Made by a program: the position numbers and the translations under genes. A DNA stretch of 42,594 bases. Origin: a virus. Below, in pieces: positions 704 through 25,747 of this stretch. Under the pieces are notes generated by a model. It made no database searches, was not told the origin of the DNA, and was given only the letters and a program-made list of their open reading frames with translations. The stretch lies in IMG/VR virus record IMGVR_UViG_3300043449_000529, positions 1-42,594 of that record. The stretch is one strand, 5' to 3'. Positions within the stretch are counted from its first letter, which is position 1. Each line of letters opens with the position of its first letter.

Positions 704-1443
704 AAGATGACCTCCTGTTTTCCAGAGTCCCAATCAGTTGCTCTAAGGATGCGAGCTAGTCGTGCTTGAATGAGTGCATCATCGAACGACAGACCCTTGG
801 CCTCATACGTCCTGACAACAGCTTCCCATGCAGCCTTGGTCTCAAAGCCACCCTTGTCCGATTGGAACTGATTGAGCAGTTTCTCGGCTCCAACGGGGCC
901 AACACCGGGACAACCGGGGTAACCGTCAGAGGTATCTCCAGTGAGCGTCTGTTTCATCCAATGGTAATCAGCGTCACCTTCGGACACATAGATCAACTCG
1001 TCCTTGCGCCACAAAGGGGCAGGGACACACAGCATGTCTTTGTCTTGGGATACGATGACGGGATGCTCATAGTCACCATCGGTCGCTAGGATACCAAGGA
1101 CATCATCACCTTCGAGGGTAGGCATGGTGTGCGTGGTGTATTCCTGCGTCACCATCTGGCGAACATCGGACATACACAGGGGTGGACGCTTGCCACTACG
1201 GTTGGCCTTATAGCCAGCGTAAAGGGACTTTCGGAAGGAACCATTGCCAAAGGCGAACACAACGTCACCTACGTCACCAATGGCTTCCTTGACCTTCTTT
1301 ATGGATAACTGAAGGACATCCCACGCCTCAACCTTGTTGCTGGCTAGGATGACATTCTGTTCATCCCACGCTGCCTCATACTCAACGGCGGCACAGGATA
1401 CATACACATACTCGTCACCGTCGATTAGCAGCGTTCTTTGCAC
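691..1443 (-). CDS. 5'-3' exonuclease, T7 gp6-like (FEN superfamily)
   Basis: This 250-aa flap/5' exonuclease would remove RNA primers and degrade host DNA during replication. The metal-binding acidic residues of the family are visible: D8 and D10 (LLIDGDE), E111/D113/D114 (EGDD), D134/D136 (SQDKD) and D170/D173 (TGDTSD), followed by the helix-hairpin-helix PGCPGVGPVGAEKLL. A basic arch region (SFRKSLYAGYKANRSGKR) sits between. Length fits the T7 gp6 class. The start is GTG at 1443 with AAAGGA about 8 bases upstream, which puts the family motif LLIDGD at residues 5-10; it overlaps the zinc-binding gene by 29 bases. Confidence 0.92.
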   Translation of the reverse strand: MQRTLLIDGDEYVYVSCAAVEYEAAWDEQNVILASNKVEAWDVLQLSIKKVKEAIGDVGDVVFAFGNGSFRKSLYAGYKANRSGKRPPLCMSDVRQMVTQEYTTHTMPTLEGDDVLGILATDGDYEHPVIVSQDKDMLCVPAPLWRKDELIYVSEGDADYHWMKQTLTGDTSDGYPGCPGVGPVGAEKLLNQFQSDKGGFETKAAWEAVVRTYEAKGLSFDDALIQARLARILRATDWDSGKQEVILWTP

Positions 1444-1666
1444 GAGGGTTTCCTTTGGTTACGACAGGAGCAGGAGGAGTATCAGCGTCATCAGCACGAC
1501 TATCGCCTGTGCCTCCAGAAACACTAGAAAGAGCGTCATAGGCTTCAGCCTTCTGTTTCATCTTTTCAAAGTCGAGGCACACATCAGGTAACGAACGACC
1601 ACACTTGGTGCATTCGCTCTTGCGACCATCGAAGTGTTCACAGTTATCAACGAGGATGGGTTTCAT
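1415..1666 (-). CDS. Small putative zinc-binding protein (83 aa)
   Basis: The N-terminal part carries a possible metal site, C9-x-H11 ... C19-x2-C22 (CEHFDGRKSECTKC). A short helix (DFEKMKQKAEAYDAL) follows, then a disordered Ser/Asp/Pro/Ala-rich tail ending in basic residues. Small Cys/His proteins like this are common in phage replication operons, but I cannot assign this one. The ATG at 1666 overlaps the TGA of the upstream glutaredoxin-like gene. The metal site is inference from cysteine spacing only. Confidence 0.65.
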   Translation of the reverse strand: MKPILVDNCEHFDGRKSECTKCGRSLPDVCLDFEKMKQKAEAYDALSSVSGGTGDSRADDADTPPAPVVTKGNPRAKNAANRR

Positions 1667-1917
1667 CGGCCTACCTGTAGATACTTGAGGACAGCTTCCT
1701 TGGTTCCAACAATTCGTCCAGCATGGAAAGCCACTGGATGACTATCGCTGATACCTTGGCTGGCGAGGAAAGATCGAACGGTTGAGTAGATGACGAACTC
1801 AGCGGGCTTGATGCCATACTCAATAAGTATCGTGTAGAGGTCTTCGTGTTCAGCAACGCCTTCACCACGAGACAGAATGGCCCAGTGTTGCTTCATGAAC
1901 TCAGTTGGACTGGTCAC
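1663..1917 (-). CDS. Glutaredoxin-fold paralogue lacking the CxxC active site
   Basis: This 84-aa protein aligns along its whole length with the glutaredoxin encoded immediately upstream. Both share the opening W-A-(I/V)-(L/V)-S-R, the middle F-L-(A/S)-S-x-G, the segment P-V-A-F-H-A-G-R-I-V-G versus P-Q-V-F-H-N-G-K-V-V-G, and a closing Y-L. The RDCKFC redox site of the neighbour is replaced by GEGVAEHED, so thiol-disulfide exchange cannot occur there; the cis-proline position is kept. It is best explained as a tandem duplication. The start is GTG at 1917 with AGGAG 6 bases upstream; it overlaps the glutaredoxin 3' end by 17 bases. Role unknown; a structural or regulatory partner is possible. 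Confidence 0.75.
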   Translation of the reverse strand: MTSPTEFMKQHWAILSRGEGVAEHEDLYTILIEYGIKPAEFVIYSTVRSFLASQGISDSHPVAFHAGRIVGTKEAVLKYLQVGR

Positions 1918-2155
1918 GGTCTACTCCTATAAGTCTGAGGTATCGCTGGGTGTCCGTGAATCCACCAACGACCTTGCCGTTGTGGAAGACCTGAGGGACG
2001 GTGGTAAAACCAGCGGAGGACAGGAAGTCACCAAGGTCTGGTGAGTGTCTGATGTCGAAGGGTTCATAGTCGATGTTGTAGTCATGTAATAGGAGCATCA
2101 CATCAGCGCAGAACTTACAGTCGCGTCTGCTAACGACAGCCCACTTATCGGCCAT
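1901..2155 (-). CDS. Glutaredoxin
   Basis: An 84-aa dithiol glutaredoxin with active site C-K-F-C (residues 16-19), the cis-Pro motif TVPQVF and the glutathione-binding G-G-F near the C-terminus (KVVGGFTDTQRYL). Length is normal for small phage and bacterial glutaredoxins. Glutaredoxins can reduce ribonucleotide reductase; this genome encodes a class II RNR whose two C-terminal cysteines need such a reductant, so a role in dNTP supply is likely. The ATG at 2155 overlaps the stop of the 24-aa membrane peptide (TATGGCCGATAA). It is followed by a CxxC-less paralogue. Confidence 0.92.
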   Translation of the reverse strand: MADKWAVVSRRDCKFCADVMLLLHDYNIDYEPFDIRHSPDLGDFLSSAGFTTVPQVFHNGKVVGGFTDTQRYLRLIGVDRDQSN

Positions 2156-2219
2156 AGAGCCACCATATGAATGCGATTGAGAAGTAGAGGAGAAGGACGA
2201 GAACAGCCCAGTCCATCAT
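2145..2219 (-). CDS. 24-aa transmembrane micropeptide
   Basis: The peptide is almost entirely one hydrophobic segment (WAVLVLLLYFSIAFIWWLYG) after MMD, ending in Arg. Its ATGATG start overlaps the TGA of the tiny lipoprotein gene and its stop overlaps the ATG of glutaredoxin, so it fills the space between two genes without any gap. That tight fit, rather than homology, is the evidence. Such short hydrophobic peptides can be exclusion or lysis factors, or non-functional coupling spacers. Function unknown. Confidence 0.5.
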   Translation of the reverse strand: MMDWAVLVLLLYFSIAFIWWLYGR

Positions 2220-2314
2220 CGGCACAGCCCGTCCATACAGGAGTGATACAAGGTGGTGGCTGCGGAACAGGCTGAGAGGCTGAGGAGGGCTAGTGAGAGG
2301 ATGATGTGTCGCAT
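2216..2314 (-). CDS. 32-aa lipoprotein micropeptide
   Basis: It begins MRHIILSLALLSLSAC, a textbook signal peptide ending in a lipobox (L-S-A-C), so the mature product would be a lipid-anchored peptide of only 17 residues with two further cysteines. The start lies inside the 3' end of thyX in another frame, with GGAG 6 bases before the ATG; the stop overlaps the next start. A second in-frame ATG four codons upstream is possible. It looks like a minimal outer-membrane lipopeptide and could work with the adjacent 24-aa membrane peptide, but that is inference. Confidence 0.55.
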   Translation of the reverse strand: MRHIILSLALLSLSACSAATTLYHSCMDGLCR

Positions 2315-3009
2315 AATGCGCTCCATGAGACAGGGAATAGGGGTTGCAACAGTTCGCCAATCTGGAGGGCGATCTGTTTCGTTTCGTGCTGGGCGTGGTC
2401 TGAGGTTCGCTGTTGGTAGACTCTGGCGAATGCCGCTATCGAGCCTGACCAAATCCACTCGGTATATATAGACTGAGGGAGAACCATGCGGGCCTGTTCG
2501 GGACAGACACCAACTTTGAGAAGAGAGTTATAGAGGATTAGAGTGCGTTCACGGTGCTCTGTTTCTAGCTCTGAGAGACTGTAGTCATCCCAAGAGCCGT
2601 AGTTGTTCACCGAGTCGCAGTAGAACGCATGTAGTTTTGATAGATTGACGGGTTCCTCTGTCGATCCCTGCTTCTTGTCCTCAGCCCGCTTACGCCACAC
2701 TTCAGGAACATAGAACTCAGGTTCACTATCGACATACCGCCGACTAACCTCATTCTCAGTCAGTCCAACCTTGTGTTTGAACAACTGGCTCCTGACGAAC
2801 AACGGAGCCTTAATGCGGAACTTGGCGTAACAGTGAGAGAACGGGGTCCAGTGGTGATGCTTGGCGAGGTATGAGATGAGCTTGGTGTCACGTTCAGACA
2901 ACACACCGGGAAATGTAGACTCCCAATCACTCTCCTTATCGAATGACACCCGTGCTGCATTGACCACATCGAGGTCTGAACCCATGTGATCTAGGAGTTC
3001 AACCTTCAT
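2290..3009 (-). CDS. thyX: FAD-dependent thymidylate synthase ThyX
   Basis: ThyX makes dTMP from dUMP using methylene-tetrahydrofolate, FAD and NADPH. The 239-aa product carries a ThyX motif in variant form, KHKVGLTENEVSRRY, instead of the classic RHR-x7-S; it is followed by SEPEFYVPEVWR and a conserved C-terminal block (EQARMVLPQSIYTEWIW). The ATG at 3009 has GGAGGAAG in front and overlaps the stop of the 62-aa gene. With class II RNR, glutaredoxin and the MazG-like protein it forms a nucleotide-synthesis set. The KHK variant is, as I recall, common in phage ThyX proteins. Confidence 0.93.
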   Translation of the reverse strand: MKVELLDHMGSDLDVVNAARVSFDKESDWESTFPGVLSERDTKLISYLAKHHHWTPFSHCYAKFRIKAPLFVRSQLFKHKVGLTENEVSRRYVDSEPEFYVPEVWRKRAEDKKQGSTEEPVNLSKLHAFYCDSVNNYGSWDDYSLSELETEHRERTLILYNSLLKVGVCPEQARMVLPQSIYTEWIWSGSIAAFARVYQQRTSDHAQHETKQIALQIGELLQPLFPVSWSALCDTSSSH

Positions 3010-3194
3010 TCTTCCTCCAGTGTTATAACAACTGTCATGATGTCATCTGCCTTCTTATGGAAAGCCACACGCCTCGCAGCAGCCCTGTAGCGAAACAGTT
3101 CTGCCTTATCGAAATCGACAAGCATTCGGTGCATGTGGCGAGGCCCAATGAACTTGTCACCAACACGAACAACGAACGCCTTACGACTCTTCAT
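3006..3194 (-). CDS. Hypothetical basic 62-aa protein
   Basis: A small, strongly basic protein (MKSRKAFVVRVGDKF..., then AELFRYRAAARRVAFHKK) ending in an acidic tail. The first half looks like a short beta hairpin, followed by a helix. No family recognised. It starts inside the end of the upstream gene, with GAGG a few bases before, and its ATGA overlaps the thyX start. Its place between polymerase and thyX and its charge make nucleic-acid binding conceivable, but unsupported. Confidence 0.55.
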   Translation of the reverse strand: MKSRKAFVVRVGDKFIGPRHMHRMLVDFDKAELFRYRAAARRVAFHKKADDIMTVVITLEEE

Positions 3195-3453
3195 CAGCCG
3201 CCTCGTGTTCTACCGGCGCATCGGCCCACTCATCGTCAGTGAGTTCAACACCACGCTTCTCAAGCCACGTAAGACCCTTGACCGTAGGTCTCCATTCGCC
3301 ACTGAAGATGTCCTGATGAACCTTGGTGCTGATGAGACCCATCGAAGCAGCCATTGCGACGTAGGTGGCATACTGCCTTGCGAAATCCGATTGGACTGCG
3401 AAGGAGCGTTTGTATGCTTCAAGGATGATGTCGTAGAGCTTGTTGTGTATCAA
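3181..3453 (-). CDS. Hypothetical 90-aa protein
   Basis: I place the start at a TTG (3453) because GGAGGAC lies 7 bases upstream and the TTG overlaps the TGA of the HNH gene (CATTGA). A longer reading from GTG at 3480 has no ribosome site. The protein is mostly helical (LYDIILEAYKRSFAVQSDFARQYATYVAMAASMG) with a compact middle (WRPTVKGLTWLEKRG) resembling the end of a winged-helix or 'restart' domain in many small phage proteins, and an acidic tail. Function unknown. Confidence 0.55.
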   Translation of the reverse strand: MIHNKLYDIILEAYKRSFAVQSDFARQYATYVAMAASMGLISTKVHQDIFSGEWRPTVKGLTWLEKRGVELTDDEWADAPVEHEAADEES

Positions 3454-9126: not shown

Positions 9127-11517
9127 TCATGCAAAGGCATACTCAGCTTGCATGACCAGTGATAAATCCAATGACCCCTTGTGAGGCACTGGAGTAAGCT
9201 TGTGTGTGTTTTCCAATGTGTCGTAGGCACGATCTAAAATGTCCTGCAACACATCGTTATTCGTGTAGAGGTCCACGAATGTCCTCTTGATTATCTCACG
9301 GAACTTCGGTGCATCATTGGGAAGACAGCCAAAGCTATCATGCACCAATGCAATACTGTTGATGCCTTCAGCTTTTGCTGCCAGCACCACCATCTGCAAA
9401 TGAGTTGCGTCCATCGAATGAGTGAACGACGCGGCTATTCCGTTCGATGATTTCGCTTTGTCTATCTCAGGTGTTTCCACAAGAGACACAGGAGCTATGC
9501 GACGTTTGACTGACCTGTCGATCAGCGTCAGGTTCACTCGCTTCTCCTCCATCTTCGGATAGCGCATCATCACAGGAAAACCCAAAGGCGTCTCCCAAGT
9601 GACAGGCTTCCCCTCGTGTGATGTTGCCTTCGCTATAGACTGAAGGAACCTCATTACCTCAGCCGGTTTCGAGATAGCTTCCTCGATAGCGTCGAAGATG
9701 TGGTGACTAAGGTATCGAGCCGCAGCGTATCCATTATCTTCACCGAAGGGATGCACAGGAAGTTCACCAGACATCACTCGGAGTTCCAAAGGCCGCATCG
9801 TGTCTTCCATTAACTGCTGCTGCATACCGAAGCGTTTCGATGAGTAGCTGTAGGTCATCACGTTACGCTTCACCAAGGAACGTGTAACGCCATACGCAAG
9901 ACACATCTTTGCTAACGTATCACTGTCACCACCAAGGTCGCTGGTGACCTTACGCTCCACAATGGTTGCCACAGCCTGATAGATGTCTTGTGGTTTCTCA
10001 CAGGGTATCAGGTTGACCAGTCGCGCCTCTTCAGACTGCGACATGGCGCACAGGTGTTGGAGACCTGAGCAGGAACCATCGAAAGACACAGGGATGTGGA
10101 CAGGGCGTCCAGCTAGGCCTTCTTCAAGAGCCTTACATGCAGCAACGAACATGAAGGGACTGTCGGCTTTCGTCCACCAACGCCGCATCATGTCCGGGTC
10201 TTTTGCGACGGCCAGTAATTCGAGGTCATGCTTGTCCACCCAAGCCACACGTTCGTCAAAGGGTGCCTTGTCGATCTTGTTGAAGGCACCACAGTTAGCC
10301 ACATGAACCTTGAGCCAATACAGACCTTCCTCGTTCAACACCTGTCCTTCGTCAAAACGAAAGAGAGCACGGATGTGATCCGCACGTTGAAAGTTGAAAT
10401 GAGGAAGGCCGTAGATGCGCCCCCTGTAGTCGTAGTTCATCGGTGTCCAGAAGGAAGCACCAACGAGCCTGTCTGCCATAGCGAGGTCGCTGGACAGGAT
10501 GATACGCTCACCAGCAAGACCACGATTAGCCGTGGCAATCTCGTTGGTCTTTCGTCTCCACAGTTTCCGTTCCACATCACTCATGTCCTCCCAAGGTTTA
10601 TCCTTAGGCGGCTCAAAAATGTCGTCCTTCGACGGCAGACCGGGAACCTGAGCGCCGTTCTCGAAGCAGTATCGAACGAGGGACAGAATGTCCTCATCCA
10701 CACGCCAGTGGACGGCCTGTGCGTGGTTCAAAGCTTCGAGTGGTAGCTTCATACGTCTTGTTGCTGTTTGACGCTCCACGAGCCGTCTCACTGGCTTCTG
10801 GCGCGTCCTCACGAGGTCATAATGGACACCATCGAGGTGCAGGGTGTAGCCGCTCCATTCCACCACCTCGCCGTTCTGAGGCAGGGCGATGATCTGGCGC
10901 AGTACAATGGACGCCAAGATGTCATCGAGGCGCTCGACAGCTTCCTTTGTGATGGTCAGGCAGTCGCTCTGATCCACGACAAAGAGAGAGCCGTTGAGAA
11001 GGACAGAAAGGCCCTCCTTGCCAGCCACAAGATGCTCCTTGTCGGCCCAAGTCTCCCATTGGAAGTCATGAAGCTTCTGAGCGTAGGCGCGAAAGGCGCG
11101 CTTTCTGTAGGCCACAGAGGAATGCTTGTTCCTGACCAAGGTCTCCAGACGGTCAGCGTCAGCGGAGCTATACTTACGGAAGGCATCCGCGTAACACTCA
11201 AACTCGAATGCTCGACCAATCGTTCGCATGGCGTTGGACAGGGTGGGTCTCTTATGGCCCACCACATTCATACCATAATAGAGCACAAGCAGAGCAATCT
11301 TCTCATGGTCTAGACCAAGGATGGCCCTAGGGCTACCTTTGAACGCGAAGGAGGACTTCAGAGTGCTAAGGTGGTCGTTCACGTTGGTGACGGTCTCATC
11401 CATGTATCTTTGGATCAGCCCCTGAGCACCATCGGTTCCACCTAGGCCCTGACGTTTCTCGGTCTTGTGTTCACGCTTGAGGTTTCGCTTGATGGTCAGG
11501 TCGATTGCTTCGGACAT
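9127..11517 (-). CDS. Single-subunit T7-type RNA polymerase
   Basis: A 796-aa phage RNA polymerase (T7 is 883). Catalytic residues are all visible: D480 in FDGSCSGLQH (T7 D537), R546/K550 and Y558 in VTRSLVKRNVMTYSYSSKRFG (T7 R627, K631, Y639), H726/D727 in ALVHDSFG (T7 H811/D812), plus DYRGRIYGLPHFNFQRAD of the palm. The N-terminal domain is shortened compared with T7. ATG at 11517 has AGGAGGCC directly before it, and a T7-like promoter initiates 15 bases upstream, implying self-amplification. It is the first gene of the leftward replication operon. Its natural targets are the two promoters at 11532 and 16821. Confidence 0.97.
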   Translation of the reverse strand: MSEAIDLTIKRNLKREHKTEKRQGLGGTDGAQGLIQRYMDETVTNVNDHLSTLKSSFAFKGSPRAILGLDHEKIALLVLYYGMNVVGHKRPTLSNAMRTIGRAFEFECYADAFRKYSSADADRLETLVRNKHSSVAYRKRAFRAYAQKLHDFQWETWADKEHLVAGKEGLSVLLNGSLFVVDQSDCLTITKEAVERLDDILASIVLRQIIALPQNGEVVEWSGYTLHLDGVHYDLVRTRQKPVRRLVERQTATRRMKLPLEALNHAQAVHWRVDEDILSLVRYCFENGAQVPGLPSKDDIFEPPKDKPWEDMSDVERKLWRRKTNEIATANRGLAGERIILSSDLAMADRLVGASFWTPMNYDYRGRIYGLPHFNFQRADHIRALFRFDEGQVLNEEGLYWLKVHVANCGAFNKIDKAPFDERVAWVDKHDLELLAVAKDPDMMRRWWTKADSPFMFVAACKALEEGLAGRPVHIPVSFDGSCSGLQHLCAMSQSEEARLVNLIPCEKPQDIYQAVATIVERKVTSDLGGDSDTLAKMCLAYGVTRSLVKRNVMTYSYSSKRFGMQQQLMEDTMRPLELRVMSGELPVHPFGEDNGYAAARYLSHHIFDAIEEAISKPAEVMRFLQSIAKATSHEGKPVTWETPLGFPVMMRYPKMEEKRVNLTLIDRSVKRRIAPVSLVETPEIDKAKSSNGIAASFTHSMDATHLQMVVLAAKAEGINSIALVHDSFGCLPNDAPKFREIIKRTFVDLYTNNDVLQDILDRAYDTLENTHKLTPVPHKGSLDLSLVMQAEYAFA

Positions 11518-11635: not shown

Positions 11636-12772
11636 TTAATCATCCTGTTTATCGCGGGATTTCAATCGTTTACTCGTTGCCGAGTGAGGCGCAGGACTAA
11701 CTGCAAATCCTTGTACGGGGGTTCGATTCCCTCCGAGGCCTCCAGTTGCACGTTTTGTACGCATTTCGTGACCCATTTTACCCCAGATGTATGCCCGTTG
11801 GGTCAGGTCGAGGTTATCCTTCGGGTAGGTTTTGGGCAGATCAATTGGCACATTCTGAGTTTTGTAAGATAGTTGTTCCACCTCAGTCTCAGGTCCAGCG
11901 AAGGAACTCAGCGGGTTTTGCGCGGGGACCCAATGGTCGTATCGCTGCGTCGTCTTGATATTCGCGTGACCCAATAGCTTGGCCACAGTCGCAGTCGGCA
12001 CCCCCTTGCGGGTCATCAGGGTCGCGGCGGTGTGCCGAAGGACATGCGGGGTCACGCCATCGGGCAACCCAAGGTAGCGCGAGGCGGTCTTACAGGCCCG
12101 CCAAAGCTGACGGTAGGTAGGAACACCCTCGCCATCGGTCAGCATCTCCATCAGGGGCCGCGCGAGAGCATCAGGGATCGGCACCGAGCGGGGTTTCTTG
12201 GCCTTCGTCTGTCTGGCCTTGAGCCGCAGGAACCACAACCCGTTATACTCCTGCTCAAGCTGCTCCGCGCGAAGGGACAATAGCTCCCCCACGCGAAGGC
12301 CGGTGACCAGCAGGGTCATGAGGGAAGCCGCGTGACGCCATCCCACATGGTCGAGCACGAACTGGGCGAACCGGGGGACATCCTGCTCCCTGATCCACGC
12401 ATTCTTCTCGTTGTCCTCATCGAGGAGGGGGAACTTGGGTTTGCCGCCGAGATACTCATTGTCCACGGCCCACGACAGGGCCTTGGAGCCAGCCACCATG
12501 ATTCGGTTGACCGTGGCGGGGCTGTAGGTCCCACCCCGGTTATTCGAGAGCGCGAGGAGGGCTTGCTGCGCGTCTTCGAGGTGATGCTTCCTGATGCGCG
12601 TAATGAGCATCTCAGGACCCACCACATGCACGAAGGTGTTCAGTCGGCGGCGCGAATCAATCTCACCACGTTTACCGTTCCACAGGCGATGGGAACACTT
12701 CTGCTCCAGTTCACCCAAGGTCATGTCATAGGCGTCGTCAGGGACACGCGAGGGAAGCGGTCGTCTACCCAT
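11636..12772 (-). CDS. int: Tyrosine-family integrase
   Basis: A 378-aa site-specific recombinase. The N-terminal half is the core-binding/SAM-like domain (about 20-110). The catalytic domain shows R160 (VTGLRVGELLSL), H243-x-x-R246 (PHVLRHTAATLM), H269 (LLGHANIKTT) and the nucleophile Y278 (TTQRYDHW). One hundred residues follow Y278, longer than usual; residues 343-358 are encoded by a sequence equal to the 3' half of a tRNA-Cys read backwards, so attP is inside the gene. Start at 12772 with AAGGAGC upstream. A small winged-helix gene precedes it by 11 bases. Confidence 0.95.
   Translation of the reverse strand: MGRRPLPSRVPDDAYDMTLGELEQKCSHRLWNGKRGEIDSRRRLNTFVHVVGPEMLITRIRKHHLEDAQQALLALSNNRGGTYSPATVNRIMVAGSKALSWAVDNEYLGGKPKFPLLDEDNEKNAWIREQDVPRFAQFVLDHVGWRHAASLMTLLVTGLRVGELLSLRAEQLEQEYNGLWFLRLKARQTKAKKPRSVPIPDALARPLMEMLTDGEGVPTYRQLWRACKTASRYLGLPDGVTPHVLRHTAATLMTRKGVPTATVAKLLGHANIKTTQRYDHWVPAQNPLSSFAGPETEVEQLSYKTQNVPIDLPKTYPKDNLDLTQRAYIWGKMGHEMRTKRATGGLGGNRTPVQGFAVSPAPHSATSKRLKSRDKQDD
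11675..11744 (+). other. attP: attP core: tRNA-Cys-derived sequence inside int
   Basis: Bases 11701-11744 on the plus strand are the 3' half of a tRNA-Cys: anticodon loop CTGCAAA (GCA), variable stretch, T arm GGGGG TTCGATT CCCTC, acceptor CGAGGCC, U73 (Cys-specific discriminator) and CCA. Upstream, GCCGAGTGAGGCGCAGGACT resembles a D arm and anticodon stem, but three bases appear missing in the D loop and three extra (TAA/AAC) interrupt the anticodon stem, so this is not a working tRNA. The 5' acceptor strand pairs only partly. Both apparent indels are multiples of three, which keeps the overlapping integrase frame open. Integration into the host tRNA-Cys gene is the natural reading. Confidence 0.85.
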
Positions 12773-12783
12773 AGCTTCGCTCC

Positions 12784-13176
12784 TTACCCATGTGCTCCTA
12801 CTCCTAATCGGTCTGTGAACTTCTTTAGAAAAGTGCGACCCTTGGGGGACAGGGTGTAGTGGACCTCGCGTAAATCCACTGAGCCACCACGACGATCAAC
12901 GAGGCCAAATCCTTCGCCACCGTCGCGCGAGCGTTCCCCTAATTCCAACATCCAACGCGAGACGATACCGGAGGTGGTCTCTAGGTCCTTGGCGTAATCC
13001 GTGGGACCACCTCCGGGTTTCAATGCGACCAGCAACAGGGACGCGATGTGGTTGCCTGTGATGGCCGGGTTCAACTCTCTGAACATCTCCAAGGCGTGGA
13101 GAAATTTTTCCGCTTTAACGTGCTGCTCCCTTTCAAGGAGGTGCGGTTTCGTTTCTGCGGGGTTCAGATACGGCAT
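12784..13176 (-). CDS. Winged-helix (MarR-like) DNA-binding protein, candidate lysogeny regulator
   Basis: A 130-aa protein. After a helical N-terminus, residues about 40-75 form a helix-turn-helix-like unit (HIASLLLVALKPGGGPTDYAKDLETTSGIVSRWMLELGE), followed by a wing (GLVDRRGGSVDLREVHYTLSPKG) and a final helix (RTFLKKFTDRL). The T-L-S-P-K-G-x-x-F ending is typical of MarR/PadR-like winged helices (T-L-T-x-K-G). Start at 13176 with GGGAG 8 bases upstream. It lies 11 bases before int in the same transcript, so a repressor, recombination directionality factor or int regulator are all possible. No CI-type repressor was seen elsewhere. Confidence 0.75.
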   Translation of the reverse strand: MPYLNPAETKPHLLEREQHVKAEKFLHALEMFRELNPAITGNHIASLLLVALKPGGGPTDYAKDLETTSGIVSRWMLELGERSRDGGEGFGLVDRRGGSVDLREVHYTLSPKGRTFLKKFTDRLGVGAHG

Positions 13177-21177: not shown

Positions 21178-22962
21178 ATGAAAGCCAGATTCGACTTAAA
21201 CAATCCATACGCACAGGCGTTCATCGATGTCGGTAAGCAGATGGGCGCGTCCCCCGCGTTCATCTCGGCGTCCCTCGGTAACTCTTGGAATGAATCCAAG
21301 TGGAATCCCAGTGAACGCACCGGAGACGGTGGTGCCGCCTATGGTGGTATGCAGTGGAACTCCAAGTATAGCCCCGACCGCGTTCAGGCCTTGATGGCGA
21401 CTGCAAAGCAGATGGGTCTCCCTTGGGATAACCCTCGTGTTCAGGCGACACATTGGTACAACGAGAACAAGGATAACCTTGGCGTCGCTGATCCCAATGC
21501 AGCGGTCAATGCTGCTGTGTCCAGCCTTAGGCCAGCGGGTTATCAGCCGGGACATCCTGAGGGTGCCAAGGCTTATGATCTACGAAAGAACGACAGCCTA
21601 GAGATATTCAACCAGTTAAACGGTGGAAATGGCGCTCTTGCCTATTCGCCTCAGGAGCAGACTGCTGCTGCCGCTGGTGGAAGTATGCCCTTGCAGGAAC
21701 AAACGCTCATCCCCGGCACACAGCAGGAGGATAGATACAGTGGTGTAGGGCCAGCCTTGGCTAACATCGGCTCCATTGTGGCTGGTCTCGACCGTGGTGC
21801 TCCTCGTGGCCTTTCCGTTGGCTTGGCGAATGCTGCGGACAATCTGGTCGCTCAGCAGAGGTTGAACCAGCAGAACAAGGGTCTTCGTGTTCTATCCGCG
21901 AACGACAAAGGCATGATTACGCAGGACCCAAATACGGGCGAGGTAAAGGTTCAGCCGTTACCTACTGGATACGCGGAAAACAAGCTTCAGTATAAGGGTC
22001 TAGACACCGACAAGAGTGGACAGACCTTTGATACCTTTGTGAACCCCACCACGGGTGAACTGGTCCGCAAGCCTACCAACATGCAAGACCCCGCGATGAA
22101 AGCGCAGGAGAAACTTGATGAGGGAGATGCAAACTTCTGGGGCGAGTATGTGATGACGAACCCTGCGGCTTTGACTCAGGTCCCTCGTAACGTACGTTCT
22201 CAGGTGATGTCGTCAGTTCGTAAGCAAGCTGAAGAAGCTGGCTTTGGTGGCAAGGACCTCTTTTCAACGCTTCAGAAGAACGCCACTGACATTGTGGATT
22301 ACAAGAAGCGCGCTGGTATCATTGCAAACCTCGACACCTTCAAGGGTGAGTTCCTCGGAGCCGCAAAGCAAGCCGCCGATTACTCCAAAGACTTGGAGCG
22401 TCAGTTTGGCTCTCAGCCTCTCAACCAGCTTTACCAGTGGGCTGAGAAGAACGCGGGTTCACCTGAAGCTGTCAAGATTAACAATCTCAAGACGGCTCTT
22501 GAGGCTGTGTCTCGTTCAGCAAACCGTGCGTTCTCCACGGCATCTGGTGGTAACGTAACTGGCGAGCAGCGTCTGACCGAACTCATGAACCCCGCCATGC
22601 CTCACAGCATGATTACGGGTTCTCTTGGTGTTCTAACCAAAGATGTCGTTCGACTTAATCAGAACGCTCGATATGCGCTTGATAACCAGAGAGCAAGGAA
22701 CGGTGGCAAGCCTATCCCGCATCCTGAGATTGATAACGAAGAGGCTGCTCTTAAGGACATCCTTGGTGGTTACGACACGAAGGATAGCGGAAAACAGCCG
22801 ATGATCCGTGGTGATGCTCCTGCCAATCCAGAAGATAAAAACGCCATCCCAATGCCTAGTCGCATTACGTCACCGGCTGACTTTGATGCTTACGTGCGTG
22901 AAAACAAAATCCCACCGGGGACACCCTTCCGCATGGGAGACAGAGTGATCTACTCAAAATGA
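21178..22962 (+). CDS. Internal virion protein with N-terminal lysozyme-like domain
   Basis: A 594-aa protein. Residues about 8-150 form a phage tail lysozyme domain: FISASLGNSWNESKWNPS with candidate catalytic E39, then AAYGGMQWN and THWYNENKDN, as in virion-associated peptidoglycan hydrolases. The rest is mostly helical and ends in a small domain (ITSPADFDAYVRENKIPPGTPFRMGDRVI). This is the expected part of the ejection machine that opens the cell wall locally. TAAGGAGACACC ribosome site before ATG 21178. It lies between two other ejection-type proteins. Confidence 0.85.
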   Translation: MKARFDLNNPYAQAFIDVGKQMGASPAFISASLGNSWNESKWNPSERTGDGGAAYGGMQWNSKYSPDRVQALMATAKQMGLPWDNPRVQATHWYNENKDNLGVADPNAAVNAAVSSLRPAGYQPGHPEGAKAYDLRKNDSLEIFNQLNGGNGALAYSPQEQTAAAAGGSMPLQEQTLIPGTQQEDRYSGVGPALANIGSIVAGLDRGAPRGLSVGLANAADNLVAQQRLNQQNKGLRVLSANDKGMITQDPNTGEVKVQPLPTGYAENKLQYKGLDTDKSGQTFDTFVNPTTGELVRKPTNMQDPAMKAQEKLDEGDANFWGEYVMTNPAALTQVPRNVRSQVMSSVRKQAEEAGFGGKDLFSTLQKNATDIVDYKKRAGIIANLDTFKGEFLGAAKQAADYSKDLERQFGSQPLNQLYQWAEKNAGSPEAVKINNLKTALEAVSRSANRAFSTASGGNVTGEQRLTELMNPAMPHSMITGSLGVLTKDVVRLNQNARYALDNQRARNGGKPIPHPEIDNEEAALKDILGGYDTKDSGKQPMIRGDAPANPEDKNAIPMPSRITSPADFDAYVRENKIPPGTPFRMGDRVIYSK

Positions 22963-22966
22963 GGTT

Positions 22967-25747
22967 ATGATGGTTGATGACCCATGGGCCGCTTACGAGA
23001 AGAAGCCGACCCAGACTGACTCTACAGATGACCCGTGGGCATCATACACAAGCAAGCCTACGGTAGACAAAAAGAAACAAGAACCTTCGCTTGCTAAAGA
23101 CCTTGCCTACGGTGTTGAAAGCGGCATCCTTGGTGGCTCTGCGAATACCCTTCGACAAGAAGGTTTTCCAAATGCAGCCGCTGTAGCAGCCAAGGCGGCA
23201 AAGTATGTCCATGATGCTGCTGGTCTCGAAGGATACGATCCGACTAACGGAGCGTCTTCCTTTGGTGACAGGGTGCTGAACATTCCGCACTCCTTGGCTC
23301 AGGGTGCTCCCGGCATGGCTCAGGATGTTGCCGCTGGTGCTGCTGGTGGCGCAGTTGCTGGACCGATTGGCGCGCTCCTTGGTTTCGGTGGCTCCTACTA
23401 TTTGAGGAACGCTGGTGAAGCTAAAGACCGCGTTCGTGCTTCGGATGGTAAGGCTCCTGATGAGCCGTTGTCTCCCACAGAACAGGCCCGTGCTGCTACG
23501 GGTCTCATCGGAGACACGCTGCTTGGCAAATATGCGGTTGGAAAAACGCTTGCTCCCGGCGCTGTTAAGGAAGTGGGTGCCAAGGCTGTTCCTGAGATTA
23601 TCAAGAAGGCAGGAAAGACTGTCGCTATTGATGCGGGAGTAGGCGCTGCACAAACGGCTGCGGATAACGCCGTGTTGGACAAGCGGTTTTCCGCCGAAGA
23701 TACGGCGCTTGGCGGACTTACCGGGGCTGCTGCTGGCAGTATCGTGGGTGGTGCAAGGGCTATCCCAGAGGTAGGCTCTGCAATGGCGCTCCGCTCTCTC
23801 GCGGGCATTGATCCAAAGTATCTCGCTGCTGCGGCTAATGAAACAAAGCAGCAGTCCTCCCGCATTGGCTCTATTAAAGAAGGCAATGCTGGAGCTATCC
23901 TCGATGAGTCACGTAAGGCTACCTCTGCGCGTCGTGCTGTGGATGCCTCTGGCGGGATGACCAAGGGTCCTGACATTGTGCAGGAAGCCATCAACTCATC
24001 CGGTGACCCTGCGCTTCCCTACAAGTATGCCGAGATGATGGACGACCTTAAGAGGGGTCAGCCAGTCAATCAGGAGCATCTTTCTGACCTAGAGGGTGCT
24101 CTGGGTGGTCAACACCCCAACATCGACCAGTGGCTCGAAGGTATCCGTAAGGAAAGCGTCCTGAATCAGGTCGCCCAGCTTGGACACCGGGAAGGCTCCT
24201 CGATCTCTGGGGGTCTCCATTCGACAACTCCAGGTCGCACCATAGACAACCTCGCTCGCCGGTATGGCCTTGGCACCATTGCGGGCAGTTTGGCCCTCGA
24301 TCTTGCTGGTCACGGCATGATGGGCGGATGGGGCGCGAAGATTGGTGCGGGTGCCGTTGGTCTCAGCGGTGCCATGCGTGGACTGGACAAGCTAACAGGC
24401 TTTTCAAACCCAGTGGGACGCTTCGTGGATCGCTTTGCCGATCAATCAGGTCCCAACCTACCTCCCTCGTCTACACCCGTCCCTGTGGACCCCTCACTAG
24501 CCAAAGCAGAGGCTCGTCAGGCCGAGATGGCTGCTCGTGCTCAGGCAAGAGCTGACGCCGCTGCATCAAGGGTCAAGGCAAAGGAAGACAAGGCGAGAAA
24601 CAAGGATTTCCTTGAGAAGGTCAACGCCATTCCTGACAAGTTCATTCCCCAGTCCCAACGCTTCGGCAGGGATATGGTTGAACCGGCGTCTCTTCCTGAG
24701 AACCCGCAGTATGGCGGATCGTCCCCGGTTGATCCTAAGGACCTCGCCTTCAACGCCTTGCTGGCTAAGAAGTTTGGTGTCAAGGACCTCAACCTGATTA
24801 ACCAGTTCGACAATCAGGGCGCGTTGATTGATCCTTCGCAAATACCGGCGAATGATCCTATGCGCGCAAAGATTGCTCGGTGGCTGGAGGTTGCTCACGA
24901 TGCACAACGTGAGAACGCTTACACACGACAGGAGTTTGATAACGAGAAGGCTATGGAGGGCCTTGGCATCTACACCAACAGTATGCCTACGCCAGATGCT
25001 CCTAGGAACCCCTACGCACCACGCGACGAGGTAGTCGGCTCCGTTTCACCAATGGAGCCGTTCGATTCTCCAAGCCTGTCGCAAATCGATAACTTCAAGC
25101 GTAAGGCTGCGCCTCCAGATGCTCCTGCTGCTCCTGAGCCTACAGGAAGCATGGCACAACTCATGTCGAAAGGATCGGCCAAAGGATCGGCCAAGAAGGT
25201 TCCGATGGAAGAGGCGATGTCTCCTCCAAGGATCGAAGCTTCTGTGTCACCGATGGAATCGGCTCTCCGTGTGGTTGATCCTGCAAAGTATCAGACTCCG
25301 ACAGAACACGGTGCTGTTGTTCACGCTGAGTCTGACACATGGAAGACTGAGGATGCTCGTGCGACTGCAACGCAGAAGTATGTTGAGACCAGAGACCTAT
25401 CAATGAAGGCTCTTATTTCAAAGAACATACTCAGCCCCGGTGGAAGACAGACCATGAAGGACAACATGGTAAAGTGGGGTTCCGAGCTTATCAATGAGAA
25501 CAACGCAACTGACGCTTTGCGTTACATAGACGAGGAAATTCTTCCCAATTTTCCCCGCCATGACGCAGAACGAATACGCGACCATTTCGAGAACTACATA
25601 CCTTACAAGACGGTAAATGGTAAGAAAACTGCACTCACTACGTTCCTTGGTACGTGGAAACACAAGACCAAAGACGCCGCTGTAAAGGCTAGGGAAGACA
25701 ACCAGCGTCTGAACAAAGAGCAAGCAGAACGGAAGAAATCGAAATGA
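22967..25747 (+). CDS. Large internal virion / DNA ejection protein
   Basis: A 926-aa protein with two N-terminal D-P-W-A repeats (DDPWAAYEKKP, DDPWASYTSKP), then Ala/Gly-rich hydrophobic stretches (DVAAGAAGGAVAGPIGALLGFGGSYYL, ALGGLTGAAAGSIVGG) that could insert into membranes, and long charged helices (AKAEARQAEMAARAQARADAAASRVKAKEDKA). That plan resembles T7 gp16-type and other podovirus ejection proteins, though no enzyme domain is visible here. Two adjacent ATGs (22967, 22970) share the GAGG site. Overlaps the next gene by 4 bases (ATGA). Confidence 0.75.
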   Translation: MMVDDPWAAYEKKPTQTDSTDDPWASYTSKPTVDKKKQEPSLAKDLAYGVESGILGGSANTLRQEGFPNAAAVAAKAAKYVHDAAGLEGYDPTNGASSFGDRVLNIPHSLAQGAPGMAQDVAAGAAGGAVAGPIGALLGFGGSYYLRNAGEAKDRVRASDGKAPDEPLSPTEQARAATGLIGDTLLGKYAVGKTLAPGAVKEVGAKAVPEIIKKAGKTVAIDAGVGAAQTAADNAVLDKRFSAEDTALGGLTGAAAGSIVGGARAIPEVGSAMALRSLAGIDPKYLAAAANETKQQSSRIGSIKEGNAGAILDESRKATSARRAVDASGGMTKGPDIVQEAINSSGDPALPYKYAEMMDDLKRGQPVNQEHLSDLEGALGGQHPNIDQWLEGIRKESVLNQVAQLGHREGSSISGGLHSTTPGRTIDNLARRYGLGTIAGSLALDLAGHGMMGGWGAKIGAGAVGLSGAMRGLDKLTGFSNPVGRFVDRFADQSGPNLPPSSTPVPVDPSLAKAEARQAEMAARAQARADAAASRVKAKEDKARNKDFLEKVNAIPDKFIPQSQRFGRDMVEPASLPENPQYGGSSPVDPKDLAFNALLAKKFGVKDLNLINQFDNQGALIDPSQIPANDPMRAKIARWLEVAHDAQRENAYTRQEFDNEKAMEGLGIYTNSMPTPDAPRNPYAPRDEVVGSVSPMEPFDSPSLSQIDNFKRKAAPPDAPAAPEPTGSMAQLMSKGSAKGSAKKVPMEEAMSPPRIEASVSPMESALRVVDPAKYQTPTEHGAVVHAESDTWKTEDARATATQKYVETRDLSMKALISKNILSPGGRQTMKDNMVKWGSELINENNATDALRYIDEEILPNFPRHDAERIRDHFENYIPYKTVNGKKTALTTFLGTWKHKTKDAAVKAREDNQRLNKEQAERKKSK

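Follow-up and report, generated by a model that had tools for sequence, protein, structure and literature searches.

What becomes of a phage integrase whose own gene contains the site at which the phage recombines with its host? We met this question in a virus record of 42,594 bp, which was analysed as one whole stretch (hereafter the window). The window carries the gene set of a T7-like podovirus, including a scaffold, terminase and tail proteins (PHROGs), and combines a single-subunit RNA polymerase (RNAP) with a T7-type DNA polymerase and a primase-helicase, as autographivirus-type phages do. Its marR, int and RNAP genes follow one another as in the module known from temperate T7-like phages (PMC10134795), and the same order recurs in pelagiphages, cyanophages P-SSP7 and S-TIP37, LUZ100 and Rhizobium vTRX32-1. 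Judged by gene content, the window phage is a temperate T7-like podovirus. Two large proteins of the virion region, of 594 and 926 aa (21178-22962 and 22967-25747), remained without a PHROGs match (E 0.001).

The positions of the relevant features are collected in Table 1. The integrase contains a Phage_integrase domain (PF00589) spanning residues 126-280 (E 2.6e-25), and its R-K-H-R-H-Y catalytic residues, namely R160, K190, H243, R246, H269 and Y278, are invariant with respect to three relatives (four integrases aligned), which identifies it as a tyrosine integrase. The start MGR is common to the window and the related loci L147 and L149. An AlphaFold model built from two aligned rows had a mean pLDDT of 46.5, with the tail below 30, and was set aside as poor.

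Table 1 Features of the window around the integrase gene
Feature	Position	Strand	Basis or remark
T7-like RNA polymerase	9127..11517	-	phrog_414, E 4e-182; adjoins int downstream
int, encoding a tyrosine integrase of 378 aa, with the attP core in its reading frame	11636..12772	-	ORF and Pfam
RNAP-side attP arm; holds int codons 359-378 with the stop, which integration should remove from int	11636..11700	-	
attP core, equal to the tRNA-Cys(GCA) 3' half from the anticodon loop through CCA	11701..11744	+	exact host matches; antisense to int codons 343-358
Putative crossover (overlap), 7 bp CTGCAAA, anticodon loop	11701..11707	+	only stretch common to the window core and the 5'-half core of G776
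int-side attP arm, coding for the int tail before the core (residues 286-342)	11745..11917	-	sequence analyses
Candidate arm sites TGACCCA/TGGGTCA	11769, 11799, 11967		arm-site role putative
MarR-like transcriptional regulator	12784..13176	-	phrog_9665, E 5e-16; just upstream of int

The initial annotation read the core as the 3' half of a tRNA-Cys whose opposite strand specifies int residues 343-358, and proposed a search for it at bacterial tRNA-Cys genes. Both the reading and the search held up. The 44-mer was matched exactly in 94 bacterial contig stretches, almost all from Hyphomicrobiales/Rhizobiales, including Methylobacterium, Methylocystis, Methylosinus, Rhodoblastus, Aurantimonas and others, and the probability of such a match by chance is negligible. 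Wherever the upstream half is present in these stretches, a complete tRNA-Cys(GCA) is found, the exception being one displaced copy in contig L044. The window itself contains no complete tRNA, and the 5' half of the tRNA-Cys is likewise missing from it. The host, for which the tRNA match is the one indicator, is probably a member of the Rhizobiales. In the int frame the core is translated as GGLGGNRTPVQGFAV, ending with V358, after which 20 more residues follow. One might suppose that the tRNA fragment is a relic that no longer serves as attP, and the absence of a prophage of the window phage from the genomes searched would fit this; however, the 44/44 identity to the host tRNA, the intact catalytic residues and the use of the same site and crossover by related elements make a relic highly improbable.

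The crossover was located by comparison with G776, a related phage of 44,560 bp (RNAP 41-43% identical) that is integrated in the same tRNA-Cys. G776 carries the 5' half of the tRNA, present as a 37-bp repeat (TTTGCAGTCC...GAGGCC) at positions 62 and 44464. The window core ends with ...GGATTTGCAG and that of G776 starts with TTTGCAGTCC, so that the two have nothing in common but the 7-bp anticodon loop. Seven bases are a usual overlap length in tyrosine recombinases. Since this loop alone is common to both cores, we infer that strand exchange takes place at 11701-11707, so that codons 359-378 would be exchanged. In addition, G776 (L144:62-98; L146:4464) thus uses the opposite half of the window's tRNA-Cys with the same crossover loop, which means that the tRNA half restored by the phage has changed within one phage group. 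The G776 core is flanked by 15-nt inverted repeats, CCGCTAAGTCATTGA, that look like arm sites. In the window, three of the seven TGACCCA/TGGGTCA sites, a motif chosen post hoc, fall within a 205-bp span (11769-11973) in the int tail by the core; a search for arm sites across the core returned just one unconvincing 11-mer.

Specifically, Int would recombine the anticodon loop of its 3'-half core with the host tRNA-Cys gene, and integration should swap codons 359-378 for LCV[T/A]TPPRG followed by a host-specific run, whereas the V358 codon should change only from GTT to GTC. The nine new residues are the antisense of the tRNA's own 5' half, and host DNA encodes the rest; across 90 host tRNA copies the predicted new end has 10-193 residues (median 29.5). 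When the 5' side of Methylobacterium contig L018 is joined to the phage core, ARAGORN finds an intact tRNA-Cys, and the integrase ends ...GFAVLCVTTPPRGLCRTAPRGSSGDPRPGGRLGESGL. The earlier expectation that the last 20-35 codons are replaced by host sequence is right about the exchange of the tail, but the number should be 20 and the first nine new residues should come from the tRNA. Lysogens of the window phage or of its read-through relatives were found in none of the 392-397 family, 397 order and 381 class genomes, and the rewritten enzyme is accordingly a prediction; these genomes are a sample with G187 (described below) as the sole positive control, so this absence is weak evidence. Large viral contigs L311-L314, L316, L320 and L324 were considered as read-through lysogens and rejected, since their tRNA-Tyr core matches are complete host-type tRNAs; G093 was likewise rejected as a relevant case, its integrase lying upstream of tRNA-Tyr in another orientation.

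The placement of attP can be compared with several known systems. In Myxococcus phages Mx8 and Mx9, attP lies inside int and the integrase C-terminus is exchanged (PMC6070905); in Mx8, 13 residues take the place of 112, which leaves an enzyme that is less active or changed in specificity (PMC4701971), so the precedent cited in the initial annotation was correct. As in Mx8 intP, attP of the window lies within the sequence that codes for a tyrosine integrase, in frame and downstream of the catalytic domain, which would be kept while the 3' end is renewed. Unlike Mx8, for which altered activity has been shown, the window would exchange 20 residues and belongs to a T7-like phage known here from its sequence. 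The SSV-type suicidal integrases of archaea also have att within the integrase gene, but their integration detaches the catalytic part and leaves the gene inactive (PMC8371274). A suicidal integrase was rejected for the window, where the change would be confined to the final 20 codons, outside the domain: as anticipated earlier, Y278 is far upstream, 80 codons before the crossover, and the joined attL still codes for the whole catalytic domain. In Streptococcus ICEs in rumA, att is inside the integrase gene and the excised and integrated C-termini differ (PMC4701971), but these are conjugative elements with a serine integrase. The program Islander allows integrases that extend across attP, citing Mx8 and SSV (PMC4383910). 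T7-like cyanophages have a tRNA-derived attP beside int, described as downstream of it (PMC8776855), and in the named temperate T7-like phages examined the core is outside int, in contrast to the window. Among phages, we found attP inside int described for Mx8 and Mx9, and no description of a T7-like phage with int spanning attP was found in the open-access literature. Where the host tRNA locus supplies the end of the integrase, as predicted for the window, the phage and prophage enzymes would form a well-matched pair for comparison.

Next, we asked how common this arrangement is. A search of viral contigs with the int protein alone gave no relatives, and relatives were therefore reached via the core sequence, int alignments and RNAP, the last yielding a survey of 80 viral-contig loci. 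L099 (47,349 bp) has a 110-bp terminal repeat and is thus a free genome; its integrase, 34% identical to that of the window, reads through an identical core in the same frame and then adds six residues. Additionally, int reads through a tRNA-derived core in L147, L149 (with L308) and L165-L167 (tRNA-Cys 3' half), in L203 (probably tRNA-Thr 3' half), and in L151, L154 and L155-L159 (tRNA-Tyr 5' half). The core lies beyond the int stop in G776, L168, L172, L198, L163 and L153, as well as in Desulfovibrio phage ProddE, Synechococcus phage Ssp-JY37 and Limnohabitans phage YIMV22061, and unrelated integrases at the same tRNA-Cys stop short by 5, 9 and 28 bp (L098, L049 and L097, respectively). The survey adds several phages with attP inside int, involving three tRNAs within one phage group.

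Could this read-through be an accident, in which the int stop codon has disappeared and the frame happens to continue across attP, with nothing else depending on it? The core is open in all three antisense frames, many relatives stop before it, and dinucleotide shuffles put the probability of an open frame up to the core at 0.05 in the window taken singly and at 0.15 in L099, all of which suit an accident. Against it, 11 of 20 phages have an open frame between Tyr+15 and the core versus 3.7 expected from the shuffles, with a naive p of ~1e-4 whose true value is weaker since the phages are non-independent. This recurrence in several lineages makes pure accident quite unlikely, and the excess of open frames is suggestive rather than firm, given that non-independence and a domain end set by rule.

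We then examined whether the tail is maintained as protein. In L155-L159, pN/pS is 0.20 for the catalytic part, 0.83 for the pre-core part and 0.62 for the post-core part; for the window, L147 and L149 the values are 0.46, 0.88 and 0.86, with synonymous sites near saturation. The post-core tails vary between lineages from 5 to 34 residues and from -5 to +5 in net charge, with no conserved sequence. These data point to little constraint, if any, on the tail at the protein level and give no clear sign of its importance as protein. In L155-L159, the 26 codons after the tRNA-Tyr core at the int 3' ends are conserved at synonymous sites as well (0.20 vs 0.58 differences per site). Such conservation suggests constraint at the DNA level on an arm of attP, that is, a functional DNA element. 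In the L099 int tail by the core (L111:386-420), close direct repeats are seen, ATTGCCCCGCA occurring twice with GATTGCCCC between. The idea that the tail is non-coding, raised by a drop in GC3, was dropped, because codon use of residues 286-342 is gene-like and their codon likelihood lies within the range of the window's phage genes.

The initial annotation had gone further and proposed that the exchange could act as a built-in switch against premature excision. In such a switch the phage-form tail would be needed for efficient integration, and its loss would lower the activity or stability of Int. The above-chance read-through of tRNA-Cys, tRNA-Tyr and probably tRNA-Thr cores, the frame that stays open through the diverged tails of L155-L159, the LKSR that directly follows the core in the window, L147 and L149, and the less active enzyme of Mx8 after its shortening (PMC4701971) would all agree with such a switch. 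However, the tail is variable in length and charge, its pN/pS is 0.62-0.86 versus 0.20-0.46 in the catalytic part, the unusual conservation of post-core synonymous sites in L155-L159 speaks for DNA-level constraint, and G776 and G187 integrate with short integrases lacking the tail. The switch therefore finds no support and seems unlikely. The tail is most likely a tolerated read-through of attP, i.e. translated arm and core DNA, for which a regulatory role is possible but unsupported; if so, C-terminal rewriting would change the enzyme little. The open-frame excess, the gene-like codon use of residues 286-342 and the shared LKSR count against tolerance and hint that the tail may be more than passive.

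A larger effect of integration may lie on the other side of attP. As attP is located between int and RNAP, integration places the two genes at opposite prophage ends. In G776 the RNAP gene (847-3273) is at one end of the prophage and marR-int (42632-44379) at the other, and in G187, a Rhizobiales genome with a 45-kb prophage, marR-int and RNAP are ~42 kb apart at opposite prophage ends; homologues of the window's marR sit beside int in both. Both relatives were seen in the integrated state, and their integrases stop 35-43 residues after the catalytic Tyr, before their own att sites. The separation of marR-int from the RNAP gene on integration is thus observed directly in the prophages of two relatives. 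For the window phage, the core, its place in int, the restored tRNA and the crossover shared with an integrated relative can be read from the DNA itself, bearing out the earlier claim that attP lies inside int and that the 3' end of int must change while the catalytic domain stays whole.

Taken together, we consider it probable, though by no means certain, that attP occupies the int 3' end, that the tail is tolerated, with residues 359-378 lost and the host-dependent end gained in the prophage enzyme, and that integration acts more strongly by cutting the link between the RNAP gene and the early unit marR-int. This disconnection would help to silence the late genes until excision, and may thereby help to hold lysogeny. 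Stable lysogens were not obtained for LUZ100 (PMC10134795) or for T7-like cyanophages (PMC8776855). In the published model for such phages, a MarR-like protein represses RNAP (PMC10134795), and decoupling of RNAP by integration is compatible with it; an attP between int and RNAP would physically link the integration state to late gene expression. A broader version, in which integration itself is the lysogeny switch across the clade, through both a new Int C-terminus and the cutting of RNAP from the early promoter, with the open frame under selection, is doubtful.

Finally, a 739-bp element lies between a complete tRNA-Cys and a second core copy in L044 (4785-5597). It holds a MarR-like gene only (34% identical to the MarR-like regulator of the window, E 7e-19) and no integrase, and is either a prophage remnant or a tiny satellite. 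Beside the tRNA in the same contig we also observed GCAATTTGCCCTGCG, which is similar to the tail repeat of L099.
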